The translations under genes and the position numbers were made by a program. Below are positions 10,594 through 31,183 of a DNA stretch of 43,820 bases, one piece after another. Numbering within the stretch: position 1 is the stretch's first letter; the number at the start of each line of letters is the position of its first letter. This stretch comes from Actinomycetes bacterium (lineage in GTDB: Bacteria; Actinomycetota; Acidimicrobiia; Acidimicrobiales; Bog-793), in NCBI GenBank assembly GCA_021809425.1, contig JAKBAA010000022.1:1-43820 (forward strand), written 5' to 3'. Under the pieces are notes generated by a model. That model was not told the DNA's origin. It made no database searches and saw nothing but the letters and a program-made list of their open reading frames with translations.

Positions 10594-12525
10594 TCAGGCG
10601 ACCTCCTCGCCGGCCCCCTGGCGGAGCCAGGTGGCGTACATGGCCGCGTACGTCCCCCCCGCCTCGACGAGGCGCTCGTGCGGCCCCCACTCGACGACGC
10701 GCCCGGCGTCGACCACGGCGATGCGGTCCGCCTTCATCGCCGTCGTCAGGCGGTGGGCGACCAGGATGGCCGTGCGCCCCTCGAGCAGCCGGTCGAGCGC
10801 CGCCTCCACCTTGGCCTCCGAGGCCAGGTCCAGGTTGGAGGTGGCCTCGTCGAGGACGAGCACGCGCGGCCGGGCGAGGAACGCCCGGGCGAGGGCGATC
10901 AGCTGGCGCTCCCCGGAGGACAGCGACTGGCCGCGCTCGTGGACCGCCGTGGCGAGCCCGTCGGGCAGCCGCTCGACGAGGTCGCCGAGGCCGACCGCCT
11001 CGACGGCGGCGAGGACGTCGGCGTCGGAGGCGTCCGGGTCGGCGAAGGCGATGTTGTCCCGCAGCGTCCCGACGAACAGGAACGGCTCCTGGGGCACCAC
11101 GCCGAGCTGCCGGCGCAGGCTCGACAGCTGGACCTTGCTGATGTCGTGGCCGTCGACGAGGACACGCCCCTCGGTCGGGTCGTAGAAGCGGGCGACCAGC
11201 TTTGCGATCGTCGACTTCCCCGCCCCGGTGCGCCCGACGAAGGCGACCGTCTCGCCGGGACGGAGGTCGAGGTCGACGTCGTGCAGGACCGGATGGGCCG
11301 GGTCGTAGCCGAAGCTGACGTGGTCGAAGCGGACCGCCCCGACCACCGTCGGCAGCGGCTCGGCATCGGCCGCCTCGGCGACGCCCGGGTCGGTGGCGAG
11401 CAGGCCGTTCAGCTTGACGAGCGACGACATCCCCTGCTGGTAGGTGTTGTAGGTCTGCACGAGCAGCTGGATCGGCTGGAAGAACCGGCCGAGGTACAGG
11501 AAGTAGGCGACGAGCACGCCGAGCGACAGCTCGTGGTGCACCACCATGGCGCCGCCGATCGCCAGCAGCACCGCCTGCCCGAGGTAGCCGAGCAGCTGGG
11601 AGCCCGGGCCGTACACGGCGGCGACCTTGGCCGTGTAGACGTACGCCTCGCGGTAGTCGCCGAGCACGTTGCGGTGGTGCACCACGTTGCGCGCCTGGCG
11701 GTTGTGCGAGACGACGACGCGCACCCCGTGCAGGCTCTCGGACAGGTCGGCGAGCACGTCGGCGATGCCGTCGCGCACGCGCAGGTAGCCGGTGGCCGAC
11801 GCCGAGCGGAACCACAACGACAGCACGGTGAGGGCCGGCACCACGAGCACGATGGTGACGAGGGCGAGCCGTACGTCGAGCACGAACAGGACGACGGCGA
11901 TCACCACCATGGTCAGCCCCTGGATGACGAGCTGGCCGAGCCCGTCGCCGAGCAGCTGGTTGAGGTTCTCGATGTCGCTCGTCATCCGCGTCATCACGAC
12001 GCCGGCCTTCTCGTCGGTGTAGAAGTCGAGCCCGAGCCGCTGCAGGTGGGTGAAGATGCGCAGGCGCAGGGCGTACTGGATGCCGGCGGCGATCCGCCCC
12101 TCGGCCATCACGAGGTAGCGCTGGGCGACCGCCGTGAGGGCGATCGAGCCGGCGTAGCCGACGACCACGGCGACGAGCACCCCGACGTCGCGCCCGAGCA
12201 TGCCGGCGTCGATCCCGGTCGAGATGAGCAGCGGCCCCGCCTGGTTGGCGGCGACGAGCACGACGATGCCGGCGAGCGCTGCCACCGCCAGCCGGCGGTG
12301 CGCGGCGAGCAGCCCCCCGAGGCTCAGCCGCTGGCGATCGGTGGCCGGGGCGCGGTGGGAGAAGGCGACGTCCGGCTCGCCATGCTCCGGCTCGTCGGCG
12401 AGCAGCCGGTCGACGCCCTCCTGCATCTCCTCGGGGATCCCCCCGAAGGGCAGCCCCGGCTGGGTCCCGCGCCCGGCGGCGAACACCGCCCCGACGCCCC
12501 CGCCCCATCCGCCCCCCATCCCCAT
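10594..12525 (-). CDS. ABC exporter subunit 2 (consensus Walker B half of heterodimer)
   Basis: 643 residues: an N-terminal glycine-rich and acidic extension of about 65 residues, six-helix exporter membrane domain (about 75-375) and nucleotide-binding domain (about 395-620). Walker A GRTGAGKS at 431-438, Q-loop Q479, signature LSSGE at 535-539 instead of LSGGQ, Walker B with the catalytic E560, and the switch histidine in AHRLTT. Its start overlaps the stop of subunit 1 by one base (TGATG) with GAGGAGGTGG just upstream. The modified signature pairs with the degenerate Walker site of the partner. The family exports drugs, lipids or peptides; substrate unknown. Confidence 0.92.
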   Translation of the reverse strand: MGMGGGWGGGVGAVFAAGRGTQPGLPFGGIPEEMQEGVDRLLADEPEHGEPDVAFSHRAPATDRQRLSLGGLLAAHRRLAVAALAGIVVLVAANQAGPLLISTGIDAGMLGRDVGVLVAVVVGYAGSIALTAVAQRYLVMAEGRIAAGIQYALRLRIFTHLQRLGLDFYTDEKAGVVMTRMTSDIENLNQLLGDGLGQLVIQGLTMVVIAVVLFVLDVRLALVTIVLVVPALTVLSLWFRSASATGYLRVRDGIADVLADLSESLHGVRVVVSHNRQARNVVHHRNVLGDYREAYVYTAKVAAVYGPGSQLLGYLGQAVLLAIGGAMVVHHELSLGVLVAYFLYLGRFFQPIQLLVQTYNTYQQGMSSLVKLNGLLATDPGVAEAADAEPLPTVVGAVRFDHVSFGYDPAHPVLHDVDLDLRPGETVAFVGRTGAGKSTIAKLVARFYDPTEGRVLVDGHDISKVQLSSLRRQLGVVPQEPFLFVGTLRDNIAFADPDASDADVLAAVEAVGLGDLVERLPDGLATAVHERGQSLSSGERQLIALARAFLARPRVLVLDEATSNLDLASEAKVEAALDRLLEGRTAILVAHRLTTAMKADRIAVVDAGRVVEWGPHERLVEAGGTYAAMYATWLRQGAGEEVA

Positions 12526-14372
12526 CAGGCCACCTCCTCGGTGTGCTCGGCCTGTGCCAGCACCTCCACGTAGAGCGGCTCCCGCTCGAGCAGCCCCTCG
12601 TGGGACCCCTCGGCGACCACCCGCCCGGCGTCCATCAGCACGACGCGGTCCGCCAACGAGATCGTGGACAGGCGGTGGGCCACGATCAGGGTGGTCCGCC
12701 CCCCGAGCAGGTGCGCCAGGGCCTCGTGGATGGCCTGCTCGACCTGCACGTCGACGGCGCTCGTTGCATCGTCGAGGACGAGGACGGGCGGGTTGACGAG
12801 GAGGGTGCGGGCGATGGCGATCCGCTGGCGCTGGCCGCCCGACAGGGTGTAGCCGCGCTCGCCGACCACCGTGTCGTAGCCGTTCGGCAGCTCGGCGATG
12901 AACCCGTCCGCCTGTGCCGCCCGGGCCGCCGCCTCCACCTCGGCAAGGCTCGCCCCGGGACGGCCGTAGGCGATGTTGTCGCGGATCGAGGTCGAGAAGA
13001 GGAACGGCTCGTCGAGCACGATCCCGACCCGGTCCCGCAGGCTGGAGAGCGTCACCGACCGGACGTCGCGCCCGTCGATGCGGACGGCGCCGGCCGTCAC
13101 GTCGTAGTAGCGGGCGATCAGCCGGGCCACGGTCGACTTGCCCGACCCGGTCCGCCCGACCAGGGCGACCGTCTCGCCCGGCCGCAGGTGGAGCGAGAAC
13201 CCGTCGAGGGCGCGGGGCAGGTCGCCTCGGTACGAGAACGCCACGTCCTCGAAGGCGACGTCCCCGGCCACCGCCCCGAGCGGGCTGGCGTCGGGCGCGT
13301 CGACGATGTCGGGCTGCTCGTCGATCAGCTCGTAGATCCTGCCGGCCGAGGCGGCGGCGCGTTGTCCCATCATGATGAGCTGGCCCAGCATCTGGAACGG
13401 TGCCTGGAGCATCACGATGTAGGCGCTGAAGGCGAGGATGGCGCCGATCCCGAGCTGGCCGTGGATGACGAGCTCGCCGCCGACCAGCAGGACGAGGGCA
13501 AGGCCGAGCTGGGGCAGGTTCTGCACCGCCGGCGTGTAGCGGGCGCGCAGGTCGTAGTCGCGCACGTTCGCCCACCGCAGCCGTGTCGCCGCCCGGGCGA
13601 GCGCCCGCAGCTCGCGGGCCTCGGCGTCGAACGCCTTGACGATGCGGACGCCGTTCACGTTCTCGTCGACGATCGTGGCCACCTCGGCGAGGCGCGCCTG
13701 GATCAGCCAGGACACCGGGAACAGGATCTTGCGCATCCTCGTGCCGGCGACGTACACGAGCGGCATCGTCACCATCGCCACGATGGCGAGCGGGACGCTG
13801 ATCGCCAGCATGTACCCGAACGCCACCACCGCCACGGCGCACTGGACGAGGATGGCCGGGGCGAACGTCAGGTACAGGTTGACCGACCGCACGTCCGAGT
13901 TGGCCCGCGAGATCAGCTGTCCGGACTGCACGCGGTCGTAGAACGAGAACGACATCTGGGTCAGGTGCTCGTACAGCAGGTGGCGCAGGTCGTACTCCAT
14001 CGAGTAGGCGGTGCGCATCAGGTACAGCCGGGAGACGAAGGCAGCCACGCCGGCGCCCACGCCGAAGCCGAGCACCTCCCACACGTAGGTGGCGAGCGAC
14101 GTCCGGTGGTGCTGGACGGCGTTCGTGATCGCCTCGTTGAGCAGGTTGGGGATCTGCACCTGCAGCACGAGCCCCACGAACGAGCAGCCGAGGGCGATCG
14201 CCACCGTCCACTTGTGGGCGGCCACGACCGGCAGGGCGCGGCGCAGCCACGAACGGCTGGTGTCGGGGTGGATCCGCCCTCGCGGCGGCGCGTAGCGGGA
14301 CGCCTCCGTCCCCTCGCCCGGTGTCGCCGGGCGCGACGGCGGCCTTCCGGCGGTGTCGTCCGGGGCGCCCAT
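12525..14372 (-). CDS. ABC exporter subunit 1 (degenerate Walker B half of heterodimer)
   Basis: 615 residues: cytoplasmic N-terminal stretch, six-helix membrane domain (about 45-345) and nucleotide-binding domain (about 370-605). Walker A GRTGSGKS at 406-413, canonical signature LSGGQ at 510-514 and switch H566, but the Q-loop position is D454 (GIVLDEP) and the catalytic glutamate after Walker B is D535 (LVLDDATS). Asp in place of Glu marks the degenerate half of heterodimeric exporters such as TM287/288. Head of a two-gene operon; a -10-like TAGCCT ends six bases before the ATG, so the transcript is probably leaderless. Confidence 0.92.
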   Translation of the reverse strand: MGAPDDTAGRPPSRPATPGEGTEASRYAPPRGRIHPDTSRSWLRRALPVVAAHKWTVAIALGCSFVGLVLQVQIPNLLNEAITNAVQHHRTSLATYVWEVLGFGVGAGVAAFVSRLYLMRTAYSMEYDLRHLLYEHLTQMSFSFYDRVQSGQLISRANSDVRSVNLYLTFAPAILVQCAVAVVAFGYMLAISVPLAIVAMVTMPLVYVAGTRMRKILFPVSWLIQARLAEVATIVDENVNGVRIVKAFDAEARELRALARAATRLRWANVRDYDLRARYTPAVQNLPQLGLALVLLVGGELVIHGQLGIGAILAFSAYIVMLQAPFQMLGQLIMMGQRAAASAGRIYELIDEQPDIVDAPDASPLGAVAGDVAFEDVAFSYRGDLPRALDGFSLHLRPGETVALVGRTGSGKSTVARLIARYYDVTAGAVRIDGRDVRSVTLSSLRDRVGIVLDEPFLFSTSIRDNIAYGRPGASLAEVEAAARAAQADGFIAELPNGYDTVVGERGYTLSGGQRQRIAIARTLLVNPPVLVLDDATSAVDVQVEQAIHEALAHLLGGRTTLIVAHRLSTISLADRVVLMDAGRVVAEGSHEGLLEREPLYVEVLAQAEHTEEVA

Positions 14373-14378
14373 CTCGTT

Positions 14379-14384
14379 AGGCTA
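14379..14384 (-). promoter_or_regulatory. -10 element of the ABC exporter operon, leaderless type
   Basis: TAGCCT on the minus strand is separated by six bases from the ATG at 14372. No ribosome-binding site is seen between them. The divergent kinase gene starts 106 bases away. Confidence 0.45.
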
Positions 14385-14477
14385 TCGAATGGTCTGCAGG
14401 TCACCGCTGCGGACCGACGGAGGGTCGCGCCGGCGCCGCCCGGGCGCGGGCGGCCCGGCGACGCGTACGGGGGCACA

Positions 14478-16952
14478 ATGACGACCGTGGTGCACGTGCC
14501 GACCGCGCCCCCGGTGCCGCTGCTCGCCGCCCGGGGGCTCACCGTCCGCTACGGGCCGCTCGTGGCCCTCGAGGGGATCGACCTCGAGGTGGCCGCCGGC
14601 GAGCTCGTCGTCGTCGCCGGCGAGAGCGGGGCCGGCAAGACGACGCTCCTGCGCTGCGTGGCCGGCGAGGTGGTGCCGGCGGCCGGCGACGTCGTGCGCC
14701 TCGGCGAGCCCGTCGTCCCCAGCCGGTCGCGGCGGGCGCACGACGTCGGCATCGTCTGGCAGGACCTCGCGCTCTGCGAGAACCTGAGCATCGCCGACAA
14801 CCTGGCGCTCGGGCGGGAGCGGCGGTTCCTGCTCCGCTCGGACGCCCGGGTCCACCGGGCCGCCGCCGAGACGCTCGCCCGCTTCGGCGTGCGCTCCGCC
14901 GACACCACCCGCAACGTCCGGTCGCTCACGAGGGCCCAGCGCCAGCTGCTGGCGGTCGCCCGGGCCATGCTCGACGCACCCCGCCTGCTCATCCTCGACG
15001 AGCCCACCGGCGCCCTCGGTGCCCAGGAGACGGCCGAGGTGGAGCAGCTCATCGAGCGGCTCCACCGGGACGGCACGACCATCCTGCTCGTCTCCCACGA
15101 CCTCGACCAGATGTTCCGCCTCGGCGACCGCATCGTCGTGCTGCGCAACGGCCGGCTCGTCGCCGAGGTCGATCCGCGCCGGGCGCACCACGAGGACGTC
15201 GTCAGCCTCATGTCGGGCCAGCCGGTCGACTCGTCGGCACGCGGCCAGCTCACCCGGCTCCACGGGCTCGCCGACCGGCTGGCCTCGGCCGACCGGTCGT
15301 CGAGCCTGTCGCTCATCCTGTCCACGCTGGCGGCGGCCCTCAACGTCGAGCACCTGGCCGTCCACCTGGCCGACGGCGACGTGCTCCGCTGCGCCGAGGC
15401 GGTCGGCGTCCCGGCCGGGCTGCGCCGGTCGTGGGACGACCTGGCGATCGGCGCCGCCGGCGGGCCGGTCGGCCTGGCCGCCGCGACCGGCCAGCCGGTC
15501 GTCGTCGGCGACGCCCGCACCAGCCCGCTGTGGGCGCCCCGGCGGTCCGAGCTCGAGGGGCTCGGCGTCGCCAGCTCGTGGTCGGTGCCGTTGAGCGGCC
15601 CGGGAGGCCTGCTCGGGGTGGTGAGCGCGCTCCGCTCGGTGCCGGCGGCGCCCGGGCGCGACGAGCTCGACCTCGTCAGCCTCTATGCCGGCTACCTGGC
15701 GGGCGCGCTCGAGCGGGAACGGCTGTTCGGCGAGGTCACCCGGCGCAACCGGGTGCTCGAGACGGTCCGCGAGATCCTGCAGGCGCTCACCGGGCCGATG
15801 CCGTTCGAGCAGGGGCTGGCGACCGCCCTGCGGGCCCTGCGATCGGGCCTCGAGGCAGCCGAGGTCGCCCTCGTCATGGCCGACGGGTCGGGCGAGGAGC
15901 GGGTGCGCGTGGCGGCCGGGCCGGCCGGCGCTGCGCCGGTGGCGTCGGCGCTGCTCGAGGCCGCCACCGCCGCCCTCCGCTCGGCCCGACCCGGGGAGCT
16001 CGTCCGCCGCGCCGGCGGCGGCGTCATGGCGATCCCGCTGGCGGCACCCGGGGGCGACGCCGCCCTCGTCGCCTCCTGGCACGGCCCCCCGCCCGGGGTC
16101 GAGGGGGGGGCGCTGCTCGTCGACGCCGCCAGCTCGCTCAGCCTGGCCCTCGAGCGGGAGGCCGCCGCCCAGGCGACCCAGGAGACCGCCGCCCTCCGCC
16201 GCTCGCGCGAGCTCCAGCGCGCCTTCCTGTCCCGCCTCGGCCACGAGCTGCGCACCCCGCTCACCGGCATCCGCGGGTACGCCTCGAGCCTGCTCCAGCC
16301 CGACGTCACCTGGGACGGCGACTCGGAGCGGCGGTTCCTGTCCCGGATCGCCTCCGAGTCGGCCCGGCTCGGCCGCCTCGTCGACGACCTGCTCGAGTTC
16401 TCGGTCATCGAGTCGGGGATCCTCCGGCTGAGCCCGGACTGGTGTGACCTCGGTCTCGTCCTCGAGGCCGCCGCCGCCTGCATCCCGCTGGAGCGTGCCG
16501 GGACGCTGCGCATCGAGCCGGCCGCCGACCTCCCGGCCGTCTGGGCCGACCACGATCGCCTGGAGCAGGTGTTCGTCAACCTGCTCGACAACGCCCTCCG
16601 CCACAACCCTCCGGGCACCTCGGTGGCGGCCACGGCTTCGGCGGGCGCCGACGGCCAGGTGGTCGTCGAGGTGCGCGACGACGGGCCGCCGATGCTCCCC
16701 GAGGTCGCCGCCGGGCTGTTCGAGCCCGGCCGCCGCCGGTTCGCCCCCACGGCCGGGACCGGTCTCGGGCTGCTCATCGCCCACGGGATCGTCGCGGCCC
16801 ACGGCGGTCACCTCGAGCTCGTCGAGGAGCCGGCCGGCAAGCGCTTCCTCGTCGTCCTCCCCGTCGAGCCGCACGACGCCCACGACCACGAGCCGGCCGG
16901 CCAGGACGCCTGGCGGGCGCTCGCCGCCCCCGGCACGGCCGGGCGGCCGTGA
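14478..16952 (+). CDS. ABC ATPase-GAF-GAF-histidine kinase fusion protein
   Basis: 824 residues with no membrane segment visible. Residues 15-248 are a full ABC ATPase: Walker A GESGAGKT (48-55), Q95 in GIVWQDLALCENLSI, signature-like LTRAQ (150-154), Walker B LLILDEP with E175, and H207. This part closely resembles the ATPase of the CUT2 sugar importer 2.6 kb downstream (YQDLALCDNLDI, DEPTAALG). Two GAF-like sensor modules follow (about 270-410 and 425-555), then a histidine kinase: H589 in GHELRTPLTGIRGY, N-box NLLDNALRHN (701-710), an altered G1 box (DDGPP) and G2 GTGLGL (760-765). The GTGA overlap with the response regulator couples the two. ATG chosen because the ABC domain begins right after it. 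A transporter-coupled sensor is inferred; domain identities are clear. Confidence 0.9.
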   Translation: MTTVVHVPTAPPVPLLAARGLTVRYGPLVALEGIDLEVAAGELVVVAGESGAGKTTLLRCVAGEVVPAAGDVVRLGEPVVPSRSRRAHDVGIVWQDLALCENLSIADNLALGRERRFLLRSDARVHRAAAETLARFGVRSADTTRNVRSLTRAQRQLLAVARAMLDAPRLLILDEPTGALGAQETAEVEQLIERLHRDGTTILLVSHDLDQMFRLGDRIVVLRNGRLVAEVDPRRAHHEDVVSLMSGQPVDSSARGQLTRLHGLADRLASADRSSSLSLILSTLAAALNVEHLAVHLADGDVLRCAEAVGVPAGLRRSWDDLAIGAAGGPVGLAAATGQPVVVGDARTSPLWAPRRSELEGLGVASSWSVPLSGPGGLLGVVSALRSVPAAPGRDELDLVSLYAGYLAGALERERLFGEVTRRNRVLETVREILQALTGPMPFEQGLATALRALRSGLEAAEVALVMADGSGEERVRVAAGPAGAAPVASALLEAATAALRSARPGELVRRAGGGVMAIPLAAPGGDAALVASWHGPPPGVEGGALLVDAASSLSLALEREAAAQATQETAALRRSRELQRAFLSRLGHELRTPLTGIRGYASSLLQPDVTWDGDSERRFLSRIASESARLGRLVDDLLEFSVIESGILRLSPDWCDLGLVLEAAAACIPLERAGTLRIEPAADLPAVWADHDRLEQVFVNLLDNALRHNPPGTSVAATASAGADGQVVVEVRDDGPPMLPEVAAGLFEPGRRRFAPTAGTGLGLLIAHGIVAAHGGHLELVEEPAGKRFLVVLPVEPHDAHDHEPAGQDAWRALAAPGTAGRP

Positions 16953-17665
16953 GCGCCGCCAGCGCCCTCGACGGGGTGGTCACCCGGGCGCTCATCGTCG
17001 AGGACGACCCCAACATCGTCGACCTCATCCGCGCCAACCTGGCGGTGCGCGGCTTCGACGCCGTCGTGTCGAGCGATGGGACGAGGGCGCTCCAGTTGCT
17101 CGAGGTCGAGCAGCCCGACATCGTCCTGCTCGACCTCATGCTGCCCGAGGCCGACGGCCTCGAGCTGTGCCGGGAGATCCGGGAACGTTCGAGCGTGGGC
17201 ATCATCGTCGTGTCGGCCCGCGGCGGCGAGCGCGACAAGGTGACCGCCCTCAACATGGGCGCCGACGACTACCTGACCAAGCCGTTCAGCATCGAGGAGC
17301 TGCTCGCCCGCATCATGGCGACGCTCCGTCGCAGCAGGACGCCCACGCCGCCGGCCCAGCTCGCCCCGGTCGTCCGGGCGGGCGACGTCGTGATCGACCT
17401 GGCCAGCCAGCAGGTCACCCGCGCCGGCGAGCCCGTCCACCTCACCCCGACCGAGTTCGCCCTGCTGCGCGAGCTGGCGAGCCAGCGCGGCAAGCTGCTC
17501 ACCCATGCCCACCTGCTCCGGCGGGTGTGGGGGCACGGCTACGAGACCGAGACCGAGTACGTCCGGGTCTACGTCCGCCGGCTGCGGGTCAAGCTCGAGA
17601 CGCCGGGCGCTGCGCCCCTCATCCTCACCCAGCCCCGGGCCGGCTACCGCTTCGTCCCCGAGTGA
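16949..17665 (+). CDS. OmpR/KdpE-type response regulator
   Basis: 238 residues from GTG, overlapping the kinase stop by four bases. The receiver domain has the acidic pair D19/D20, phosphoacceptor D62 in DIVLLDLMLPEADG, and the conserved lysine in YLTKPFS. The C-terminal winged helix is complete (VHLTPTEFALLRELASQRGK, then YVRVYVRRLRVKLE and the RAGYRFVPE wing). It is the cognate regulator of the ABC-GAF-kinase. The next gene, 475 bases downstream, encodes a sugar-binding protein, and direct GTTAAC repeats lie in between, so regulation of that importer is likely. Confidence 0.95.
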   Translation: MSAASALDGVVTRALIVEDDPNIVDLIRANLAVRGFDAVVSSDGTRALQLLEVEQPDIVLLDLMLPEADGLELCREIRERSSVGIIVVSARGGERDKVTALNMGADDYLTKPFSIEELLARIMATLRRSRTPTPPAQLAPVVRAGDVVIDLASQQVTRAGEPVHLTPTEFALLRELASQRGKLLTHAHLLRRVWGHGYETETEYVRVYVRRLRVKLETPGAAPLILTQPRAGYRFVPE

Positions 17666-17716
17666 CCTCCCGCGCCGGTGTCACCTCCCGCGCCGGTGTC
17701 GCCTCCCGCGCCGGTG
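17663..17716 (+). repeat. three tandem copies of an 18-base unit starting at the regulator stop codon
   Basis: Units at 17663-17680, 17681-17698 and 17699-17716 share CTCCCGCGCCGGTG and differ only in their first three or four bases. The first unit includes the TGA stop of the response regulator. The array is noncoding in the sense frame after the stop. Confidence 0.85.
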
Positions 17717-18140
17717 TGGCCGCCGCCCCGCCGGACCACGCCTGCCCCGCATCGTGTTAACGGCTTGTTAACCGGGCGTCGTGAATGTTGACGCGATCGT
17801 TCACGCTCGCGTTCGTATCTTCGTAACGCGACAGCGCGTCTTCGGCGGCGCCACGGGAGTGGTACCGCCGCCCGCAGCGATCCAGGGGGAGTGACACGAC
17901 GGCGCCCGGCGCAGCCTGCCGGCGCCGGTCCCGCGACGGCTTGCGGGAGGGAGAGGGAGAGGAGGTGGGCCCGGGCCCTTCGCCCCTATGGCGGGGATGT
18001 ACGGGCCGTGAACATTGCTCGGGCCGGGGGGGACTCCCGGCAAGGACGGGGGGCGGGCCGCCGAGGTGGCGTGCACGACCCGTGAGGTTGACGACCGGCC
18101 CATCCGGGTCGGCGCACCCAAGTGGAGAGGAGCAACACCG
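17717..18140 (+). promoter_or_regulatory. long intergenic control region of the XylF/XylH-like importer
   Basis: No convincing gene is present. The 17750-17835 part is clearly richer in A and T than its surroundings and holds: GTTAAC at 17756-17761 and 17767-17772 (11 bases apart), GTTCAC at 17799-17804, an inverted pair CGTGAA/TTCACG (17780-17785 and 17800-17805), and TCGCGTT/AACGCGA (17807-17813 and 17825-17831). A -35-like TTGACG is at 17788-17793 but the nearest TATCTT (17816) is 22 bases away, so the promoter is not resolved. After 17875 the leader is purine- and G-rich and ends in GGAGAGGAG before the ATG at 18141; no known riboswitch was recognised. Confidence 0.5.
17844..17872 (+). 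other. strong hairpin in the importer leader
   Basis: GGCGGCG (17844-17850) pairs with CGCCGCC (17866-17872), and CCAC (17851-17854) with GTGG (17859-17862) inside it, leaving a GGGA tetraloop and a three-base bulge. It could end read-through from the kinase operon or act as a leader structure; no T tract follows. Confidence 0.4.
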
Positions 18141-19355
18141 ATGAGAGGCACACGTACAGCGCGCAAGATGGCCGTCGCCGCCATTGCCGGTTCGACCCTC
18201 GCAGGCGGCGCTGCCGTGCAGGTGGCCACGGCCGCCCCGGCGAAGCACGTCGCGACGGCGCACGCGACGGTCTCGGCGAGCACGTTCAACCGCAACTTCA
18301 CGACGATGAAGCTGCTGAAGGCGATCACCGCCAAGGGCAAGGGCGGCATCGGCGCGATCCTGCCGGACACCGTGTCGTCCACCCGCTACGTCGAGTTCGA
18401 TGCGCCTTACCTGCAGAAGGCACTCACCCTCGCCGGCATGTCGCCGAGCCAGTTCTCGGTCGTCAACGCCCACGGCAGCGACGCCACCGAGTTCGCCGAC
18501 GCCCAGGCCGACATCGCCAAGGGTGACCGTGTCCTCATCATGGACCCGCTCGACTCGGGCGTCGGCGCCCGGATCGAGTCGTACGCCAAGGCGCACGGCG
18601 TGGCCGTCATCGACTACGACCGCCTCACGCTCGGCGGCAGCCGGCAGTACTACGTCAGCTTCAACAACGTCCGGGTCGGCACGCTGCTCGGCCAGGGCCT
18701 CGTGAGCTGCATCTCGGCGTGGCACGTCAAGAGCCCGAACGTCCTCGTCATGCACGGTGCGGTGACGGACAACAACGCCACGCTGTTCGCCAACGGCTAC
18801 AACGCCGTGCTGGCGCCCTACTTCAAGAAGGGCACCTACAAGCTGGCCGGCCGCCCGGCCGGGACGTGGACGCCGACCGTGGCGCTGTCGGAGTTCCAGG
18901 GCTACTTCACGAAGAACCCCAACATCAACGCCATCCTCATGCCGAACGACGAGAACGGCGCGCCGGTCATCGCCTACCTGAAGAGCAAGGGCCTGAAGCC
19001 GCACACCCTCCCGGTGACCGGCCAGGACGCCACGCTGACCGGCCTCGGCAACATCCTCACCGGCTACCAGTGCGGCACGGTGTACAAGCCGATCTACCTC
19101 GAGGCCCAGGCGGCCGTGGCGCTGGCCATCTACGCCCGTGCCGGCATGGCACCGCCCGCCTCGCTGGTGAACGGCTCGACCATGGACACCCAGGCCCACA
19201 AGTCGGTCGCCTCGGTGCTCCTCACCCCGGAGTGGGTGACGTCGGCCAACATGGCCTCGACGGTCATCGCCGACAACTTCGTGCCGCCCGCCCAGCTGTG
19301 CGCCGCGCCGTACGCCACGGCCGCCGCCTGCAAGGCCGCCGGCATCAAGGCGTAG
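18141..19355 (+). CDS. XylF-like sugar ABC transporter substrate-binding protein
   Basis: 404 residues from an ATG preceded by GGAGAGGAG. A Sec-type signal peptide (RTARKMAVAAIAGSTLAGG, then a likely AxA-type cleavage near VATAAPA) has no lipobox cysteine. The mature part is a type I periplasmic-binding protein of the xylose-binding class: IGAILPDTVSSTRYVEF, VIDYDRLTLGGSRQYYVSFN, NINAILMPNDENGAP and LPVTGQDATLTGL. Four cysteines could form disulfides outside the membrane. It is the first gene of a binding protein/ATPase/permease set and follows the kinase/regulator pair. The exact sugar (xylose, arabinose or another pentose) cannot be fixed from sequence. Confidence 0.9.
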   Translation: MRGTRTARKMAVAAIAGSTLAGGAAVQVATAAPAKHVATAHATVSASTFNRNFTTMKLLKAITAKGKGGIGAILPDTVSSTRYVEFDAPYLQKALTLAGMSPSQFSVVNAHGSDATEFADAQADIAKGDRVLIMDPLDSGVGARIESYAKAHGVAVIDYDRLTLGGSRQYYVSFNNVRVGTLLGQGLVSCISAWHVKSPNVLVMHGAVTDNNATLFANGYNAVLAPYFKKGTYKLAGRPAGTWTPTVALSEFQGYFTKNPNINAILMPNDENGAPVIAYLKSKGLKPHTLPVTGQDATLTGLGNILTGYQCGTVYKPIYLEAQAAVALAIYARAGMAPPASLVNGSTMDTQAHKSVASVLLTPEWVTSANMASTVIADNFVPPAQLCAAPYATAAACKAAGIKA

Positions 19356-19383
19356 CCGCGCTCGACGCAGCACCAGCAAGCGC

Positions 19384-19420
19384 GGGGCCGGCCCCGGGGG
19401 AGCACCCCGGGGCCGGCCCC
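19384..19420 (+). terminator. perfect 16-base-pair hairpin after the binding-protein gene
   Basis: GGGGCCGGCCCCGGGG (19384-19399) is followed by a five-base loop and its exact reverse complement (19405-19420). It starts about 30 bases after the binding-protein stop and lies inside the operon. A partial terminator or mRNA-protecting element would let the binding protein be made in excess over ATPase and permease. Confidence 0.7.
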
Positions 19421-19577
19421 GGTCGCCGGGTGCGACGGGAGCGACGCTCGGCCGGGTCCGGCCCGGGCGCAGCCCCCGTCGACCTCGGGGCGATCGTGCA
19501 CGGAGGGCGCCGCGCGGCCCGATCCGCGCGACACTGTCGGACGTCCCAGCCCCTGGGACGAGAGCCAGAAGGAGCGG

Positions 19578-20393
19578 GTGGGAGCGATGGTTGACGGCAT
19601 GCTCGGCCGGGGCCAGCCGCTGCTCGAGCTGCGGGGGATCGAGAAGCACTTCGGTCCCGTCCGTGCGCTGCGCAGGGTCGACTTCACGATCGAGGCCGGC
19701 AAGGTGACCGCCCTGTGCGGCGACAACGGTGCCGGCAAGAGCGTCACGGTGAAGATCATGTCGGGCATCATCCAGCCCGACGGCGGCGAGCTCGTGTGGC
19801 GGGGTCGCCCCGTCCACCTGCGCACACCGCGCGACGCCGCCGACCTCGGCATCGCCACCGTCTACCAGGACCTCGCCCTGTGCGACAACCTGGACATCGT
19901 CCAGAACATGTTCCTCGGCAGGGAGAGGCGCCGCTTCGGCGCCCTCGACGAGGGCCCGATGGAGCAGGCCGCCCGGAGCACCCTCGCCGACCTGCGGGTG
20001 ACGACGGTGCGGTCGATCCGCCAGCCCGTCGGCTCGCTGTCGGGCGGCCAGCGCCAGTCGGTGGCGGTGGCACGCGCCGTGCTGTGGAACTCCCAGCTGA
20101 TGATGCTCGACGAGCCGACCGCCGCTCTCGGCGTCAACCAGACGGCGCTCGTCCTGTCGCTCGTCCGGCGCCTCGCCGACCAGGGCTACGGCGTCGTCAT
20201 CATCTCGCACAACCTGAACGACGTCTTCGAGGTCGCCGACCGCATCGCCGTCCTCCACCTCGGCACGATGGTGGCGCAGGGCGAGGCCTCCGAGTTCGAC
20301 CGCCAGAGCGTCGTCGAGCTCATGACGACGGGCAAGGTCGAGCGGGCCGACTCAGGCTCGCTCGCCGCCAACCGAGCGTCCAAGGAGGCGTGA
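19578..20393 (+). CDS. CUT2 sugar ABC transporter ATP-binding protein
   Basis: 271 residues from GTG (AAGGAG three bases upstream); an ATG at 19587 is the alternative start. A single ABC domain rather than the two fused domains of RbsA/XylG: Walker A GDNGAGKS, Q-loop [11 protein letters not shown], signature LSGGQRQ, Walker B LMMLDEPTAALG and switch IISHN. The FrcA-like single-domain form would work as a dimer on the permease dimer. Strong local similarity to the ABC part of the upstream kinase fusion (QDLALCxNL, LGRERR) is notable. Its stop overlaps the permease start by three bases of GTGA. Confidence 0.92.
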   Translation: MGAMVDGMLGRGQPLLELRGIEKHFGPVRALRRVDFTIEAGKVTALCGDNGAGKSVTVKIMSGIIQPDGGELVWRGRPVHLRTPRDAADLGIATVYQDLALCDNLDIVQNMFLGRERRRFGALDEGPMEQAARSTLADLRVTTVRSIRQPVGSLSGGQRQSVAVARAVLWNSQLMMLDEPTAALGVNQTALVLSLVRRLADQGYGVVIISHNLNDVFEVADRIAVLHLGTMVAQGEASEFDRQSVVELMTTGKVERADSGSLAANRASKEA

Positions 20394-21763
20394 CCACCGT
20401 GGCGACGACACAACCCCCCGTCGACGACGTCGAGCGCGCCCCGGCGGGCGCCACCCACGCCGCACCGGCGACCGAGGAGGCCGCCGAGGCCGGCGCGATC
20501 GCCGCCTCGCCCGAGATCTTCGCCAACACCCTCCCCGAGTACCTGCGTGGCTGGTGGGGCCGGGTGCGCAGCGGCGAGAGCGGCATGCTGCCGGTCATCG
20601 CCGCGCTCGCCGCCATCGTCATCATCTTCCAGGTCCAGAACTCGCTGTTCCTGTCGGCCGGCAACATCGTCAACCTGCTCATCCAGGCGGCGGTCATCGT
20701 CCTGCTCGGCATCGGCGAGGTGTTCGTCCTGCTGCTCGGCGAGATCGACCTGTCGGTCGGCTACGTCGCCGGCGTGTCCGGCGGGCTCATGGCGGCGCTC
20801 GTGGCCCCCCCGTTCAACCTGCCCTGGTGGCTCGCCATCCTGGCTGCCCTCGGCGGCGGCGCGGTCATCGGCTTGGTCCAGGGAACGCTCATCACCCGAC
20901 TCGGGCTGCCCTCCTTCATCGTCACCCTCGCCGGCCTCATCGGCTGGGAGGGCGTGATGATCTGGATGTTCGACAGCCTGAACGTGGCCGTCGGCGGCGT
21001 GATCTCGGTCTCCAACAAGTACCTGCTCGACCTCGTGTCGGGCGACCTGAGCCCGGTGGCCGGATGGATCGTGATGGCGGTGCTCGTGGTGGCCTTCGGC
21101 GCCCTCATGCTCAGCCGTGACGCCAGCCGCCGGCGGGGCGGGCTGGTCGCCCCGCCGCTCGGGGTGACCGTCGGCAAGCTCATCGGCGCGGCGATCGGCG
21201 GGTCGCTCGTCGTCTGGGTGTGCAACATCAACCGTGGCATCAACACGGCCACCCTGCACACCGTGTCGCGCGGCGTCCCGTGGGCGATCCCGATCATCTT
21301 CGCCGTCTGGCTGGTCGCCTCCTTCGTGCTCGGCCGCACCCGGTTCGGCCGGTACATCTACGCCATCGGCGGCAACGCCGAGGCGGCCCGCCGTGCCGGC
21401 GTGAGCCTGGCGCGCATCCGCACGGCCGCCTTCGTCATCGCCGGCGTGATGGCCGCCGTCGCCGGCATCGTCTACACCTCCTGGCTCGGCTCGATCTCCA
21501 CGAACATCGACGGCGGCACCTACGTCCTCTACGCGGTGGCGGCGGCGGTCATCGGCGGGACCAGCCTGTTCGGCGGGCGCGGCAAGCCGCTGCACGCCGT
21601 GCTCGGCGGCCTCGTCATCGGCGCCATCGCCAACGGGCTCTCCCTGATCGGCCTCGGGGCCGCCCCGACCTACATCGTGACGGCGCTCGTCCTCATCGCC
21701 TCGATCACCATCGACTCGGTGGCCCGCCGCGGCCAGGCGGCGACGGCCCGGGCGAAGGTGTAG
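20390..21763 (+). CDS. XylH-like sugar ABC transporter permease
   Basis: 457 residues from a GTG that overlaps the ATPase stop, with AAGGAG just upstream; GTG at 20399 is possible. After a cytoplasmic N-terminal extension of about 65 residues, rich in Ala and Glu, come about ten hydrophobic segments of the BPD_transp_2 family, with the diagnostic GEIDLSVGYVAGVSGGLMAA and GGNAEAARRAGVSLARI loops and GGTSLFGGRGKPLHAVLGGL. A charged loop DASRRRGGLV sits mid-protein, as in XylH. It completes the importer. Confidence 0.93.
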   Translation: MTTVATTQPPVDDVERAPAGATHAAPATEEAAEAGAIAASPEIFANTLPEYLRGWWGRVRSGESGMLPVIAALAAIVIIFQVQNSLFLSAGNIVNLLIQAAVIVLLGIGEVFVLLLGEIDLSVGYVAGVSGGLMAALVAPPFNLPWWLAILAALGGGAVIGLVQGTLITRLGLPSFIVTLAGLIGWEGVMIWMFDSLNVAVGGVISVSNKYLLDLVSGDLSPVAGWIVMAVLVVAFGALMLSRDASRRRGGLVAPPLGVTVGKLIGAAIGGSLVVWVCNINRGINTATLHTVSRGVPWAIPIIFAVWLVASFVLGRTRFGRYIYAIGGNAEAARRAGVSLARIRTAAFVIAGVMAAVAGIVYTSWLGSISTNIDGGTYVLYAVAAAVIGGTSLFGGRGKPLHAVLGGLVIGAIANGLSLIGLGAAPTYIVTALVLIASITIDSVARRGQAATARAKV

Positions 21764-22318
21764 GTGGGCCCGTTGGTGCGACGTCGTCTGCCCCAGGCCG
21801 CCGCGCGCCGCCGAGCCCGGATCTCGCCGGCGCACCCGTCGGTGGGCGCCGGGCTCCCGCCGGCGGCTGCCCCGGCGCTCGCCGAGCCGGTCGCCTACCT
21901 GTCGGGCACCTGGTCGCTCGAGCGCCGGCTCGAGGACGCCGGCCTGGGCGTCGAGGGCCGCTTCGTCGGCATCGCCCGCCTCGAGCCTGCCGGCGACGGT
22001 CGGAGCCGGTACCGCGAGGAGGGCCTGCTCGAGTGGCAGGGCTACCGCGGCCAGGCGTCGCGCACCCTGACGGTGGCACCCGCAGGCCCGGCCACGGCGA
22101 CGTTCTCGTTCCCCGACGGTCGCTTCTTCCACCTGCTGCAGCTCCGGCCGGACGGCTACGAGGTCGTCCACGAGTGCGGGTCGGACCGCTACGCCGGCAC
22201 CTTCGTGCTGGTCGGACCGGACGCCTGGACGGCCACCTGGCGGGTCGCCGGGCCCCGCAAGGAGCTGCTCCTCGCCGGCGAGTACACCCGGCTGCCGGCC
22301 CGCCCCGCCGGCGGCTGA
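21764..22318 (+). CDS. DUF6314-like small protein
   Basis: 184 residues if translation starts at the GTG that directly follows the permease stop; a GTG at 21842 would give a 158-residue protein and omit a basic, low-complexity N-terminus. The body matches the pattern I recall for DUF6314: YLSGTWSLERRL at the start, YREEGLLEWQGY, FHLLQLRPDGYEVVHECGSD and TWRVAGPRKELLLAGEYTR at the end, a small beta-barrel-like fold of about 130 residues. No function is established. Its position as the last gene of the importer operon suggests a link to sugar uptake or sensing. It converges on the oxidoreductase gene with a six-base gap. Confidence 0.65.
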   Translation: MGPLVRRRLPQAAARRRARISPAHPSVGAGLPPAAAPALAEPVAYLSGTWSLERRLEDAGLGVEGRFVGIARLEPAGDGRSRYREEGLLEWQGYRGQASRTLTVAPAGPATATFSFPDGRFFHLLQLRPDGYEVVHECGSDRYAGTFVLVGPDAWTATWRVAGPRKELLLAGEYTRLPARPAGG

Positions 22319-22324
22319 CCCCGC

Positions 22325-23305
22325 TCAGGCGGTCGCCGGCCGCCCGCGCCGGCCGAGCCCGGCAGCCTCGTAGATGGCGTCGATGACCACCATGTTGGCC
22401 ACGGCATCCGCCCCGCCCGTCGGCGCCGGCGCGCCGGCGACGGCCGCCACGAACGCCTCCAGCTGGTACGAGTAGGTCGTCCGGCCCGTCACCTCCTCGT
22501 CGACGCGCCGGCCGTCGTCGAGCTCGACGACGAGGCGGTTGCCGAGGTGCGAGACGCACGGGTTGACCGCCCGCAGCGTCCCGCGGTCCCCCTCGAGCCG
22601 CAGCCACCACTCCGGCGGGCCGGCGGGGCCGTCCATCGCCGAGGTGACCCTTCCGGTGGCGCCCGACGGGAAGCGGAGGTCGGCCGTGCACGACACGTCG
22701 ATCCCCGGTGCCCCGACGGTGGCGGTGGCGCCGGTGACGACCGGCTCGGCACCCACGAGGGTGCGCAGCCAGTGCACCGGGTAGCAGCCGAGGTCCATCG
22801 TGGCCCCGCCGCCGAGCTCGCGGGCGTGGCGGATGTCGCCCTCGGGGATGGCGGTGCGGAAGACCGCCTCGCCGTGGCGCAGCGTCCCGAGCTCGGGGAC
22901 GAGCTCGAGCATCCGGGCGGCGAGCGGGTGGTAGCGCCAGTGGAACGCCTCGACGAGCACCCGCCGGGCCCGGCCGGCCGCGGCGACCATTGCCCGGGCC
23001 TCGTCGGCGTTGCAGGCGAACGGCTTCTCGACGAGCACGTGCCGTCCGGCCTCGAGCGCGGCGATCGACCAGCGGGCGTGCTCGGACGGCGGCAGGGCGA
23101 TGTAGACGGCATCCAGCCCGTCGTCCGCCACGAGCTCGGCGTAGCTGCCGTGGACGGTCTCGATTCCGTGGGCCGCGGCGAGCTCGGCGGCGCGCCCCCG
23201 GTCGCGGGCAGCGACCGCCACCACCTCGACCTCGGGCAGCGTCGCCGCCGCCTCCAGCAGGGCGGGCGGCGTGATCCTCGCCGCGCCGAGCGCTCCGATC
23301 CTCAC
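22325..23305 (-). CDS. Gfo/Idh/MocA family NAD(P)-dependent oxidoreductase
   Basis: 326 residues from GTG, overlapping the stop of the LytR_C-domain gene by four bases. The N-terminal Rossmann fold starts IGALGAARITPPALL, followed by the family EKPFACNADEA motif with the catalytic lysine, FHWRYHPLA, and the C-terminal beta-sheet domain with DLGCYPVHWLRTLVG, where the Asp and His of the active site reside. Members oxidise or reduce cyclic sugars, sugar acids and inositols. Placement at the end of an arabinose operon fits sugar metabolism; substrate unknown. Confidence 0.88.
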   Translation of the reverse strand: MRIGALGAARITPPALLEAAATLPEVEVVAVAARDRGRAAELAAAHGIETVHGSYAELVADDGLDAVYIALPPSEHARWSIAALEAGRHVLVEKPFACNADEARAMVAAAGRARRVLVEAFHWRYHPLAARMLELVPELGTLRHGEAVFRTAIPEGDIRHARELGGGATMDLGCYPVHWLRTLVGAEPVVTGATATVGAPGIDVSCTADLRFPSGATGRVTSAMDGPAGPPEWWLRLEGDRGTLRAVNPCVSHLGNRLVVELDDGRRVDEEVTGRTTYSYQLEAFVAAVAGAPAPTGGADAVANMVVIDAIYEAAGLGRRGRPATA

Positions 23306-27066: not shown

Positions 27067-27774
27067 TCACCCCGGCTGCCCGTAGGAGGCACCCGGCCCG
27101 TGCTTGCGGTGGAAGTGGCGCTCGAGGAGGTGGGTGCCGATCTCGGGGGTGCCCGGGCGGAGCTGCTCGGTGCGCAGCGCCGCCTCGGCGACGGCCTCGA
27201 GGGCGACGGCGTTGTCGACGGCGTCGCCGGCGTCCCTGCCCCACACGAACGGGCCGTGCGAGGCGACGAGGGCGGCCGGCCGCTCGAGCGGGTCGACGCC
27301 GAGGCGGGCCAGCGTCTCGACGATGACGTCGCCGGTGCGCTCCTCGTACCGGTCACCTGTCTCGTCGGCCGTGAGCGGCCGGGTGACCGGGACCGGGCCG
27401 AAGAAGTGGTCGGCGTGGGTCGTCCCGAAGCACGGGACAGGACGGCCGGCCTGCGCCCAGGCGGTGGCGAACGGGGAGTGGGTGTGCACCACCCCGCCGA
27501 CGGCGGGGAAGGCGCGGTAGAGGGCGAGGTGGGTCGGGGTGTCCGACGACGGGCGGGCCGTGCCGCCGACGACGGCGCCGTGGCCGAGGTCGACGAGGAC
27601 GATCGACTCGGGGGTCAGCTCGTCGTAGGGGACGCCGCTGGGCTTGATCGCCATCACCCCGGTGGAGCGGTCGACCCCGCTCACGTTGCCGAACGTGAGC
27701 CGGACGAGCCCGGCCCGGACGATGGCGAGGTTGGCCTCGAGGACGTCCCGCCGGAGCTGGTCGAGGTCGCTCAT
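27067..27774 (-). CDS. araD: L-ribulose-5-phosphate 4-epimerase
   Basis: 235 residues (E. coli AraD 231). Class II aldolase fold with zinc ligands in [14 protein letters not shown] and ASHGPFVWG, the phosphate-binding [10 protein letters not shown] and [10 protein letters not shown], and the C-terminal [17 protein letters not shown] typical of AraD. It converts L-ribulose 5-phosphate to D-xylulose 5-phosphate. ATG overlaps the araA stop by four bases. Confidence 0.93.
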
Positions 27775-29279
27775 CGGCGGGTGCCGGCGAGGCGGAAGTA
27801 GGCGTCGTTCCAGCGCAGCTCCTGCTGGAAGCGGCGGGTGCTCGTGTCGGCGTCGACGACCACGAGCTCGATGCCGGCGATCTCGGCGAGGTCGGCGAAC
27901 GCCTCGACGCCGACCGCCTGGCAGTAGGCGGTGTGGTGGGGGCCCCCGGCCGTGAGCCAGGCCTCTGCTGCCGTGGCGAGGTCGGGTCGCGGCTGCCAGA
28001 CGGCGCGGGCGACCGGGAGGACCGGCAGGTCCTCGTCCGGGACGACCGTGTCCACCTCGTTCAGCACGAGCCGCAGGCGGTCGCCGAGGTCGAGCAGGCC
28101 GACCACGACCGCCGGGCCGGGTGCCGCCGTGAAGACGAGCCGGACCGGGTCCTCGCGCCCGCCGATGGACAGGGGGTGGAACTCGCACGACGGCCGGTCG
28201 GACGTGATGGTCGGGCACACCTCGAGCATGTGGGCGCCGAGCACCTTCGTCCCCTCGGGCGCCAGGTGGTAGGTGTAGTCCTCCATGAACGACGTCCCGC
28301 CGGGAAGGCCGGCGCTCATGACCTTGGCGATCCGGACGAGCACCGCCGTCTTCCAGTCGCCCTCGGCGCCGAAGCCGTAGCCGTCGGCCATCAGCCGCTG
28401 GGCGGCGATGCCGGGGAGCTGCTTGAGCCCGTCGAGGTCCTCGAAGGTGTCCGTGAAGGCGCCGAAGCCGCCGTCCTCGAGCAGGGCCCGCAGCCCGAGC
28501 TCGATCCGGGCGGCGTCCCGGAGGGAGCCGTGGCGCTCGCCGCCGCGGTGCAGCTCGGGGGCGACGTCGTAGGTGTCGGCGTAGTCGGCGACGAGCTGGT
28601 CGACGGCGCCGTCGGCCACCTCGCCGACGGCCGCCCCGAGGACGTCGACCCCGTAGCCGTCGACCGACGCACCGAGCCGGATCTGCAGCTCCACCTTGTC
28701 GCCCTCGGTGACGGCGACGTGGCGCATGTTGTCGCCGAAGCGGGCGACCGACAGGTTCTGGGCCTCGTGCCAGCCGCACGCCGCCCGGGCCCAGGTGCCG
28801 ATCCGGGCGACGACGCCGGGGTCGCGCCAGTGGCCGACCACGGTCTTGCGGCGCAGCCCCATGCGCGTCTCGAGGTAGCCCAGCTCCCGGTCGCCGTGCG
28901 CCGACTGGTTGAGGTTCATGAAGTCCATGTCGATCTCCGACCACGGCAGGTCGCGGTTGAACTGCGTGTGGAGATGGGCCAGCGGCTTCTGCAGGGTGGC
29001 GAGCCCGGCGATCCACATCTTGGCCGGCGAGAACGTGTGCATCCATGCCAGCACGCCGACGCAGCCGGGCGCGGCGTTGGCCTCGAGGGCGACCGCCCGG
29101 ATGGCGTCGGCGTTGGCGACCACGCCCTTGCCGACGACCCGCACCGGTACGGCCGGGTCGGCGTCGAGGGAGGCGGCGACCTCGTGCGCGTGGCGCTCCA
29201 CCTGGCGCACCGCCTGCTCGCCGTAGAGGTCTTGGCTGCCGACCACGAGCCAGAGCTCGAGCTCGGAGAGGGGCTTCAT
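27771..29279 (-). CDS. araA: L-arabinose isomerase
   Basis: 502 residues (E. coli AraA 500). Start [19 protein letters not shown] is diagnostic. Metal and catalytic residues are present in order: Glu in GFGAEGDWK, Glu in [11 protein letters not shown], His in GAHMLEV and His in GGPHHTAYC. It isomerises L-arabinose to L-ribulose. GGAG lies upstream of the ATG. First catabolic gene after the transporter genes, 35 bases from the ATPase stop, so probably co-transcribed with the importer. Confidence 0.95.
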
Positions 29280-29314: not shown

Positions 29315-30133
29315 TCAGGACGAGGCGTCGGGGCGGCCAGCCATGATCTGCTTGCGGTACTCGGTCACCATGTAGGCGGTGAGCTCCTCGAGGGAGGTGT
29401 CGCGCACGGCGGTGTCCAGGGTGATCTGACCTTGCTCGATCACGTTCAGGCGATCGCAGAGCTCGAACAGGTGGGTGTAGTTGTGGTCGATGATGACCAG
29501 GGACACCCCGCGCGCCGACAGGTCGCGGATGAGGTCGATGATGAGCGACGACTCCTTCGCACCCATCGCTGCGAGCGGCTCGTCGAGGAGCAGGATCTTC
29601 ACCTCCGAGCGCGTGGCGCGGGCGACGGCGATCGCCTGGCGCTGGCCGCCCGACAGCTGCTCCACGGTGGCGTCGATGTCGGGGATGCTCACCCGGATGT
29701 CGGCCAGGTACTCGGCGGCGAGCCGCCGCATCTTGCGGTTCGACAGCATCCGGACGGGACCGCCGAAGGTCATCTCCCGGTTGAGGAAGAGGTTGTGGTA
29801 GATCGACATCTGCGGGATGAGCGCCAGGTCCTGGTACACCGTCTCGATGCCCTGGCGGCGGGCGTCCCGGACCGAGTGGAGGGTGACCTCGGTGCCCTCG
29901 ATCAGGATCCGGCCGGCGTCGGGCCGGTGGAAGCCGGAGAGCACCTTGACGAGGGTGCTCTTGCCGGTGCCGTTGTCGCCGACCAGCCCGAGGACCTCCC
30001 CGCGGTTGAGGTGCAGGTTGATGTCCCGCAGCGCCACGACCGCCCCGAAGCTCTTGCGGATGTGCTCGATCCGGAGGATCTCGTTCGATCGGTCCCCGTC
30101 CGGCTCGGACGGCGTCGAGGCGACGTCGCTCAT
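29315..30133 (-). CDS. CUT2 sugar ABC transporter ATP-binding protein (arabinose operon)
   Basis: 272 residues, one ABC domain: Walker [10 protein letters not shown]-loop [11 protein letters not shown], signature LSGGQRQ, Walker [13 protein letters not shown] and switch histidine in IIDHNY (Asp before His where Ser is usual). As with the plus-strand importer, it is the single-domain form that must dimerise. ATG overlaps the permease stop by four bases. Together with the permease and Tat-exported binding protein it forms an importer whose substrate is most likely L-arabinose, judged by araA-araD-araB downstream. Confidence 0.92.
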
Positions 30134-31182
30134 CGGACGACCCGCCAGCGTCGCATGGCGACACGGCGCAGCTGCACGTTGGCGGCCATCGCCAAGAGGA
30201 TGGCCACGCCGAGCACCAGCTCGAAGTAGAAGGCGCTCACCCCCTGGATGTTGAGCCCGTCGTAGAGGACGCCGAGCACGATGGCTCCGATGCCGGCGCC
30301 GATCACGGTGCCACGCCCTCCGGTGAGCGCCGTGCCCCCGATGACGGCGGCGGCGACGGCGTAGAACATCTCGAGGGTCCCGTCGTTGCCCGGGTCGAGC
30401 GTGGTGATGCGCACGGCGTCGATGATCCCGGCAAAGGCGGAGACGACCGAGCAGAGCACGAAGGTCCACACCTTCACCCGCCGCACCGCCACGCCGGCCT
30501 CGGCGGCCCCGAGCTGGTTGCCGCCGGTCGCCACGATGTGCAGGCCGAAGCGCGTGCGGTGGAACAGGACGAACATCCCGGCCACGAGGAAGAGCGCCCA
30601 GAGGACCTCCGACCACGAGTAGTTGCCGAGGATGGACCCGCCGGTGCCGCTCAGGCTGAACGTGTCCTGCACGCCGTTCGAGGTGAGCAGCATGATGCCG
30701 TCCAGGGCGAACAGGGTGCCGAGGGTGGTCACGAAGGAGGGCAGGTCCAGCATGACGGTGAGCAGGCCGTTGATGGCGCCGAAGCACGCCGCGGCGATGA
30801 GCGAGATGACGATCGCCAGGCCGATCGGCAGCCCGGCGTTGGCCCAGAGGAAGTAGGCGACGAACGGGAAGAAGATGAACGACGTCCCTGCCGACAGGTC
30901 GACCTCGGCCGCGGTGAGCAGGAGGGCCTCGCCGGCCCCGATGACGGCGATGGGCGCAAGGAACTGCGTGAGCGTGACGAAGTTGGCGTAGCTGATGAAC
31001 GCCGACGTGGCGAACGTGAAGTAGAGGAACAGCGCCACGGCGACGACGAAGATGGCCGCCTCACGGCGCTCGACGAGGAGACGGAGCCCACCGCCCGAGC
31101 CGGCCCCCCCCGCCACCTCCGGCGAGGGGGGCTCGGTGCTCACGGGCGCCGGGCTGGCGACGAGCCCAGCCCTGCGGGCCAC
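30130..31182 (-). CDS. CUT2 sugar ABC transporter permease (arabinose operon)
   Basis: 350 residues from GTG, two bases after the binding-protein stop; GTG at 31143 would remove 13 residues. About nine hydrophobic spans of the BPD_transp_2 family, with [56 protein letters not shown] and [20 protein letters not shown]. The conserved EVDLS loop is intact. It forms the channel of the importer with the ATPase above it. Confidence 0.92.
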
Positions 31183-31183
31183 G

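Follow-up and report, generated by a model that had tools for sequence, protein, structure and literature searches.

Why should a soluble sensor histidine kinase begin with the ATPase domain of a sugar importer, and sit beside the genes of such an importer? This question is raised by a gene at the centre of the two-component system in our window (the whole stretch of 43,820 nucleotides that was analysed), whose product joins an ABC ATPase to GAF-type modules and a kinase core. We lean toward the hypothesis that this is the kinase of a transporter-coupled two-component system, which docks by its ABC part on the permease of the adjoining CUT2 importer, reads the transport or nucleotide state of that importer, and controls importer expression through its response regulator. 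The transporter itself would then probably tell the cell how much sugar it is taking up. A sequence-only reading of the same DNA had proposed the docking and a dependence of phosphorylation on transport or ATP binding, and the analysis below supports that interpretation in part. The features of the locus are collected in Table 1.

Table 1. Features of the fusion locus, in window coordinates.
Feature	Position	Strand	Remarks
ABC ATPase-GAF-GAF-like-HisKA-HATPase_c fusion, 824 aa	14478..16952	+	start may be GTG 14487 rather than ATG 14478
CUT2-type ABC domain, residues 16-246	14523..15215	+	Walker A, Q-loop, Walker B with Glu, and H-loop present; signature LTRAQ (degenerate)
GAF domain, residues 274-411	15297..15710	+	Pfam
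GAF-like (PHY-like) module, residues ~443-558	15804..16151	+	visible in predicted structure only
HisKA (DHp) domain with H589	16215..16418	+	Pfam and homologue alignment
HATPase_c (CA) domain	16548..16868	+	Pfam
OmpR/PhoB-family response regulator	16949..17665	+	overlaps kinase by GTGA; Response_reg and Trans_reg_C (Pfam)
Predicted response-regulator operator TGTTAACGGCTTGTTAAC	17755..17772	+	direct repeat GTTHAC, 11-bp period
CUT2 sugar-binding protein	18141..19355	+	Peripla_BP_4, XylF/ChvE-like
Stand-alone CUT2 importer ATPase	19578..20393	+	canonical LSGGQ
CUT2 importer permease	20390..21763	+	BPD_transp_2, GguB/RbsC-like

Translation of 14478-16952 gives one stop-free frame of 824 residues, in which Pfam finds ABC_tran (31-177, 5e-25), GAF (274-411, 8e-15), HisKA (580-647, 6e-17) and HATPase_c (691-797, 6e-20), in the order that the sequence-only reading had given. 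The motifs also lie where it had put them (GESGAGKTT at 48-56, D174-E175, H207 and H589), and the fusion stop does overlap the regulator GTG at 16949-16952. Of the two GAF-like modules that it described, the first is a Pfam GAF domain; the second has no Pfam match, the Pfam GAF model stopping short of it, and is present only as a GAF-like topology in the AlphaFold2 model. That model (17 homologues; mean pLDDT 78, pTM 0.37) contains the ABC domain, the GAF domain, a long helix, the GAF-like fold, a two-helix DHp and the CA domain, with a pTM low enough that the arrangement of these domains is not fixed by it. The best Foldseek matches to its C-terminal part are GAF-PHY-kinase bacteriophytochromes, and ABC ATPases are also among the best matches; unlike the bacteriophytochromes, the fusion has no photosensory assignment and places an ABC domain ahead of the GAF modules.

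The kinase core is that of a HisKA-type sensor histidine kinase, with a phospho-acceptor His, N and G boxes, and a regulator in the same operon; H589, N701, N705 and G764 are invariant across 17 homologues. No convincing membrane span was found in the fusion, as had been noted before: the highest 19-residue mean hydropathy is 1.65 and falls within the ABC domain. A CACAATG-like string at the start of the gene (14471-14490 in the window) is conserved at the equivalent position of homologues. In some of them it is out of frame, and it may serve as the -10 element of a gene with a leaderless GTG start.

The fusion is not a chance or assembly accident, because it recurs in more than 30 genomes, among them one single-contig and one two-contig assembly. 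A whole-genome search found it in 11 of 60 close relatives (the window's own genome counted), and it is present in 25 of 397 genomes sampled from the order; a 26th match there (G052) is a stand-alone ATPase and was left out of the count. It occurs as well in a further family of the window's class (G165, G251) and in a second actinobacterial class (G586, G673, G796, G804), so that its distribution is scattered among genomes of two classes of the phylum. No fusion was found in the rest of 396 phylum-wide genomes, in 72,556 plasmid records, or in 42 genomes sampled by way of loci from other taxa, where only unfused ATPases appeared at the threshold used; sampling outside the phylum is thin. When 84,980 named genomes were searched with an alignment of the fusion, the matches listed were swamped by ordinary CUT2 ATPases and are uninformative on the fusion elsewhere.

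A match over residues 6-809 in a Burkholderiales MAG (L090) comes from separate kinase, regulator and ABC genes, and plasmid matches in Tistrella, Rhizobium and Microvirga come from genes that are adjacent but separate. On the Rhizobium and Microvirga plasmids (L257, L258) CUT2 importer genes lie just 3' of large sensor kinases, an unfused parallel, and one of these kinases is inside an AAA-family ATPase.

In a tree of 121 ABC domains all fusion ABC parts form one clade (89/96), which adjoins the single-domain CUT2 ATPases and is distinct from the tandem CUT2 ATPases, first and second halves alike. The single clade includes L148, a contig-truncated fusion that is labelled as a single ATPase in the tree and that we read as a fusion. 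With moderate supports, this topology points to one ancient fusion event.

What, then, has been kept of the ATPase since it was fused? The best NCBIfam matches to residues 15-260 are YtfR, AraG and XylG-type models, all of CUT2 sugar-importer ATPases, and all fall below curated cut-offs that were set for longer tandem proteins; together with the tree they give the domain a CUT2 affinity. The ABC part groups with single-domain (FrcA-like) CUT2 ATPases, having QDLALCDNL in common with them and, in most homologues, LSGGQ, but it is a separate clade and is fused to GAF-GAF-HisKA-HATPase_c. The segments QDLALC-NL and LGRERR, which the earlier reading saw in both the ABC part and the ATPase of the operon, are indeed common to the two. 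Its description of a complete ABC ATPase holds for Walker A, Walker B with its Glu, and the H-loop; it does not hold for the signature, which is LTRAQ in the window copy and LSGGQ in the operon ATPase and most homologous fusions.

Conservation across the fusions is uneven. K54, D174 and E175 are invariant in 31 of 31 ABC parts, the Q-loop Gln is absent in L172 only (30/31), and the H-loop His is absent in L172 and L218 (29/31). The signature varies among fusion ABC parts; relative to the operon ATPase, conservation of signature and D-loop is relaxed, and the ABC part evolves faster. In ABC transporters the segment that follows the Q-loop lines the groove taking the coupling helix of the permease. 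This segment (96-115) has a conservation of 0.66 in the fusions compared with 0.42 in the remaining columns, a value reached in 0 of 5000 random draws. It agrees with the consensus of the operon ATPases at 65% of positions, as against 45% for tandem CUT2 ATPases, and its own consensus, QDLALCDNL, is the single-ATPase CUT2 sequence where tandem CUT2 ATPases have QEFNLVPDL. The best 60 structures listed by a PDB sequence search with the ABC part were mostly exporters, with no CUT2 complex for groove mapping among them. Because the Walker residues are invariant, the post-Q segment conserved and the signature variable, ATP binding and permease contact look maintained and hydrolysis less strictly so. 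Such a pattern would fit a sensing rather than a purely motor role. The fusion of L172 (10151-13531), in an operon without another ATPase, has lost both the Q-loop Gln and the H-loop His; judged by these residues, it may bind ATP but hardly hydrolyse it.

Homologues lying away from CUT2 importers had been named beforehand as evidence against coupling, and the survey gave the opposite. A CUT2 binding protein and permease adjoin the fusion in all 30 loci with readable DNA beyond the two-component genes (window included), in two classes. In 29 of these the importer genes follow the kinase pair and share its strand; in the other (L215) importer and kinase pair are tail to tail. A separate ATPase accompanies it in 28. 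The remaining two, L153 (genome G673) and L172 (genome G804), have the order fusion, regulator, binding protein, permease, with gaps of less than about 120 bases between regulator and binding protein and between binding protein and permease, and no second ABC domain is detectable in either locus even at lax thresholds. Since both lie within the fusion clade of the tree, the absence of the ATPase looks derived. A second full importer is encoded on another contig of G673 and could supply an ATPase in trans for L153; the G804 assembly has a completeness of only 64%.

Some importers of this family occur without the fusion (e.g., L159 and L161), and thus the importer does not require the fusion. 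Among the 60 relatives, the binding-protein family (at least 50% identity) is found in 11 of 11 fusion genomes versus 3 of 49 fusion-free genomes (Fisher 1e-9), a statistic that overstates certainty because related genomes are not independent. In two of these three fusion-free genomes the contig ends beside the gene.

A motif search on the gaps between regulator and binding protein in 27 loci found an 18-base motif, cgTTcACggtTTGTTcAC, with a log-likelihood ratio of 279 compared with 50-54 in shuffled sequences. It is a direct repeat, GTTHAC-N5-GTTHAC, whose 11-bp period is the geometry of PhoB/OmpR-type operators, and its position before the importer agrees with the OmpR/PhoB-family domains of the regulator. 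In the window it occurs once in 43.8 kb (27.1 bits), 90 bases past the regulator stop. All 25 training loci that have a separate importer unit contain it, L214 does so weakly, and it is also found in four held-out loci (L142, L166, L209 and L215), in the last of which the kinase genes are elsewhere and the motif lies ~260 bases before the aligned start of the importer binding protein. In several loci the motif recurs after 31 bases. It is absent in both ATPase-less loci, where the importer genes are directly 3' of the regulator, and fusion-free importer loci have no site upstream of the importer. This conserved operator is predicted to link the regulator to the importer promoter.

The half-site also resembles the core of the actinobacterial PHO box, GTTCACC in Streptomyces (PMC4415409), and similar repeats adjoin pstS/phoU and Pit-like genes in these genomes. 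The repeat before the importer could therefore be a PHO box that serves the general phosphate regulator, with the fusion's own regulator acting on other targets. We think this unlikely, as the site tracks the fusion system and not importers as such, being absent 5' of the importer in fusion-free relatives. Moreover, a T in the spacer is invariant in 28 of 28 linked sites (24 of them training) versus 11 of 48 others, and for the four held-out sites alone p = 0.005, although here too the relatedness of the genomes makes the figures look firmer than they are. On this pattern of sites the cognate regulator appears considerably likelier than the phosphate regulator to read the operator. Just 5' of the operator, at 17665-17717, an 18-bp unit (ACCTCCCGCGCCGGTGTC) is repeated in tandem about three times, starting at the regulator stop codon. 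In the family of L142 (9131-15302) and L209 (11165-17343) regulator and binding protein are separated by two inserted genes, for an additional CUT2 permease and for a divergent ATPase with the signature MSGGE, and the operator is present twice, 31 bp apart.

The kinase is soluble, its ABC part is of the same type as the permease's own ATPase, its linkage to an importer is strict, and the operator is private to the system. Taken together, this suggests that the kinase senses flux or occupancy and is brought to the membrane by its ABC part. From these computed features we infer docking, a signal and its direction, phosphotransfer, and binding of the regulator to the operator, which might proceed as follows. 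A copy of an importer-type ATPase domain would have replaced a membrane sensor, so that coupling is built into the kinase; docking would explain how the kinase has access to the membrane, because it has no membrane span. The fusion would dimerise via its kinase part and its two ABC domains would dock on the CUT2 permease like a normal ATPase, alone where the operon has no separate ATPase and otherwise by sharing or competing with it. When the binding protein delivers sugar, this event and the ATP-driven opening and closing of the ABC domains that results from it would be relayed to H589 by way of the linker helix and the GAF modules. The phosphorylated regulator would act at GTTHAC-N5-GTTHAC 5' of the binding protein, ATPase and permease genes, and importer expression would be matched to transport.

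There are other ways to read this protein. The ABC part could be undocked, a duplicated ATPase turned into an ATP-dependent dimerisation switch of a cytosolic energy or metabolite sensor, with the GAF modules binding an internal sugar-derived ligand and the importer still regulated through the operator. We regard this as doubtful. It accommodates a soluble protein with two GAF-type modules, a separate ATPase in most loci, and a signature and D-loop less constrained than those of the operon ATPase, but a post-Q groove specific to the permease type and two operons without another ATPase would not be expected without docking. Least credible is docking on another transporter: the exporter pair (10594-14372) and a second CUT2 importer (29318-32338) are both encoded in the window, yet the other loci gave no match to either exporter protein next to the fusion, whereas the adjoining importer is always present there.

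The operons without another ATPase hint that the fusion may drive the CUT2 permease. In operons such as that of L153, where it is the only ATPase encoded with the importer, the histidine kinase may itself be the motor subunit, a possibility we put forward tentatively. It is distinctly unlikely that the fusion is the importer's working ATPase, combining motor and kinase, and that the separate ATPase joined later or only assists. The invariant residues of Walker A and B and the two operons, including the largely intact motifs and LSRGQ signature of L153, speak for it; the separate ATPase retained nearly everywhere, two catalytic residues lost in L172, and the derived look of both operons speak against. 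The docking kinase that we prefer has its own difficulties. The normal ATPase in most loci means that the fusion is not needed for transport there, and the faster evolution of the ABC part, the degenerate signature in the window, the losses in L172, the likeness to a PHO box and a possible trans ATPase for L153 also count against it.

Sugar-importer operons with a dedicated two-component system are known from XylFII-LytS and other binding-protein-linked kinases, in which a membrane kinase senses the signal outside the cell through a binding protein; the fusion differs in having no extracellular domain. A resemblance in function exists to BceAB-BceRS, where the nucleotide state and activity of an ABC transporter control a histidine kinase and the regulator induces the transporter genes (PMC10314905; PMC7828314). 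There, the kinase moves when the transporter binds nucleotide, and in turn it holds back the ATPase (PMC10314905). However, BceS is a separate two-helix membrane kinase on the permease BceB of a bacitracin-resistance transporter, whereas here a soluble kinase carries a sugar-importer ATPase domain; lacking a convincing membrane span and partnered by CUT2 importer genes, the fusion is not a Bce-type intramembrane-sensing kinase. In the maltose system of E. coli it is the importer ATPase subunit that reports the transport state, the idling importer holding the regulator at the membrane (PMC10427625). MalK belongs to a CUT1 importer and binds MalT, a STAND regulator, non-covalently, with no kinase or response regulator; the CUT2-type ATPase described here is fused to a kinase and its partner is the OmpR-type regulator of a two-component pair. 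The resemblance to both systems is one of function and not of membership; neither is a fusion or involves a CUT2 importer. We found no published description of an ABC ATPase-GAF-kinase fusion in the open-access full-text literature, and the architecture is apparently undescribed.

In the few systems for which it is known how a transporter signals its activity to transcription, the two machines are separate and make contact; here the two are fused and the contact surface is fixed by sequence. The ABC ATPase fold would join the input domains of histidine kinases. If the kinase is also the motor, a single protein would carry out transport and phospho-signalling, and the transporter would act as its own sensor. 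Thanks to the operons without another ATPase and the conserved operator, only a few genes are needed for a direct test of the question.

The surroundings of the system in the window offer a few further observations. A strong G+C-rich inverted repeat, seen by eye between the binding-protein and ATPase genes (19378-19420), perhaps lowers expression of the downstream pair; no Rfam family was found in 14300-22400. Directly after the permease lies a gene for a DUF6314 protein (21764-22318), which had no match in the other fusion loci searched for it and is probably outside the system. The second CUT2-type importer is on the minus strand, with its binding protein at 31187-32338, its permease at 30133-31182 and its ATPase at ~29318-30064. 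A class II aldolase gene comes next (27070-29046), and a galactokinase-like gene is located at 33813-35609; together they probably make up a sugar-use cluster beside the one studied here.
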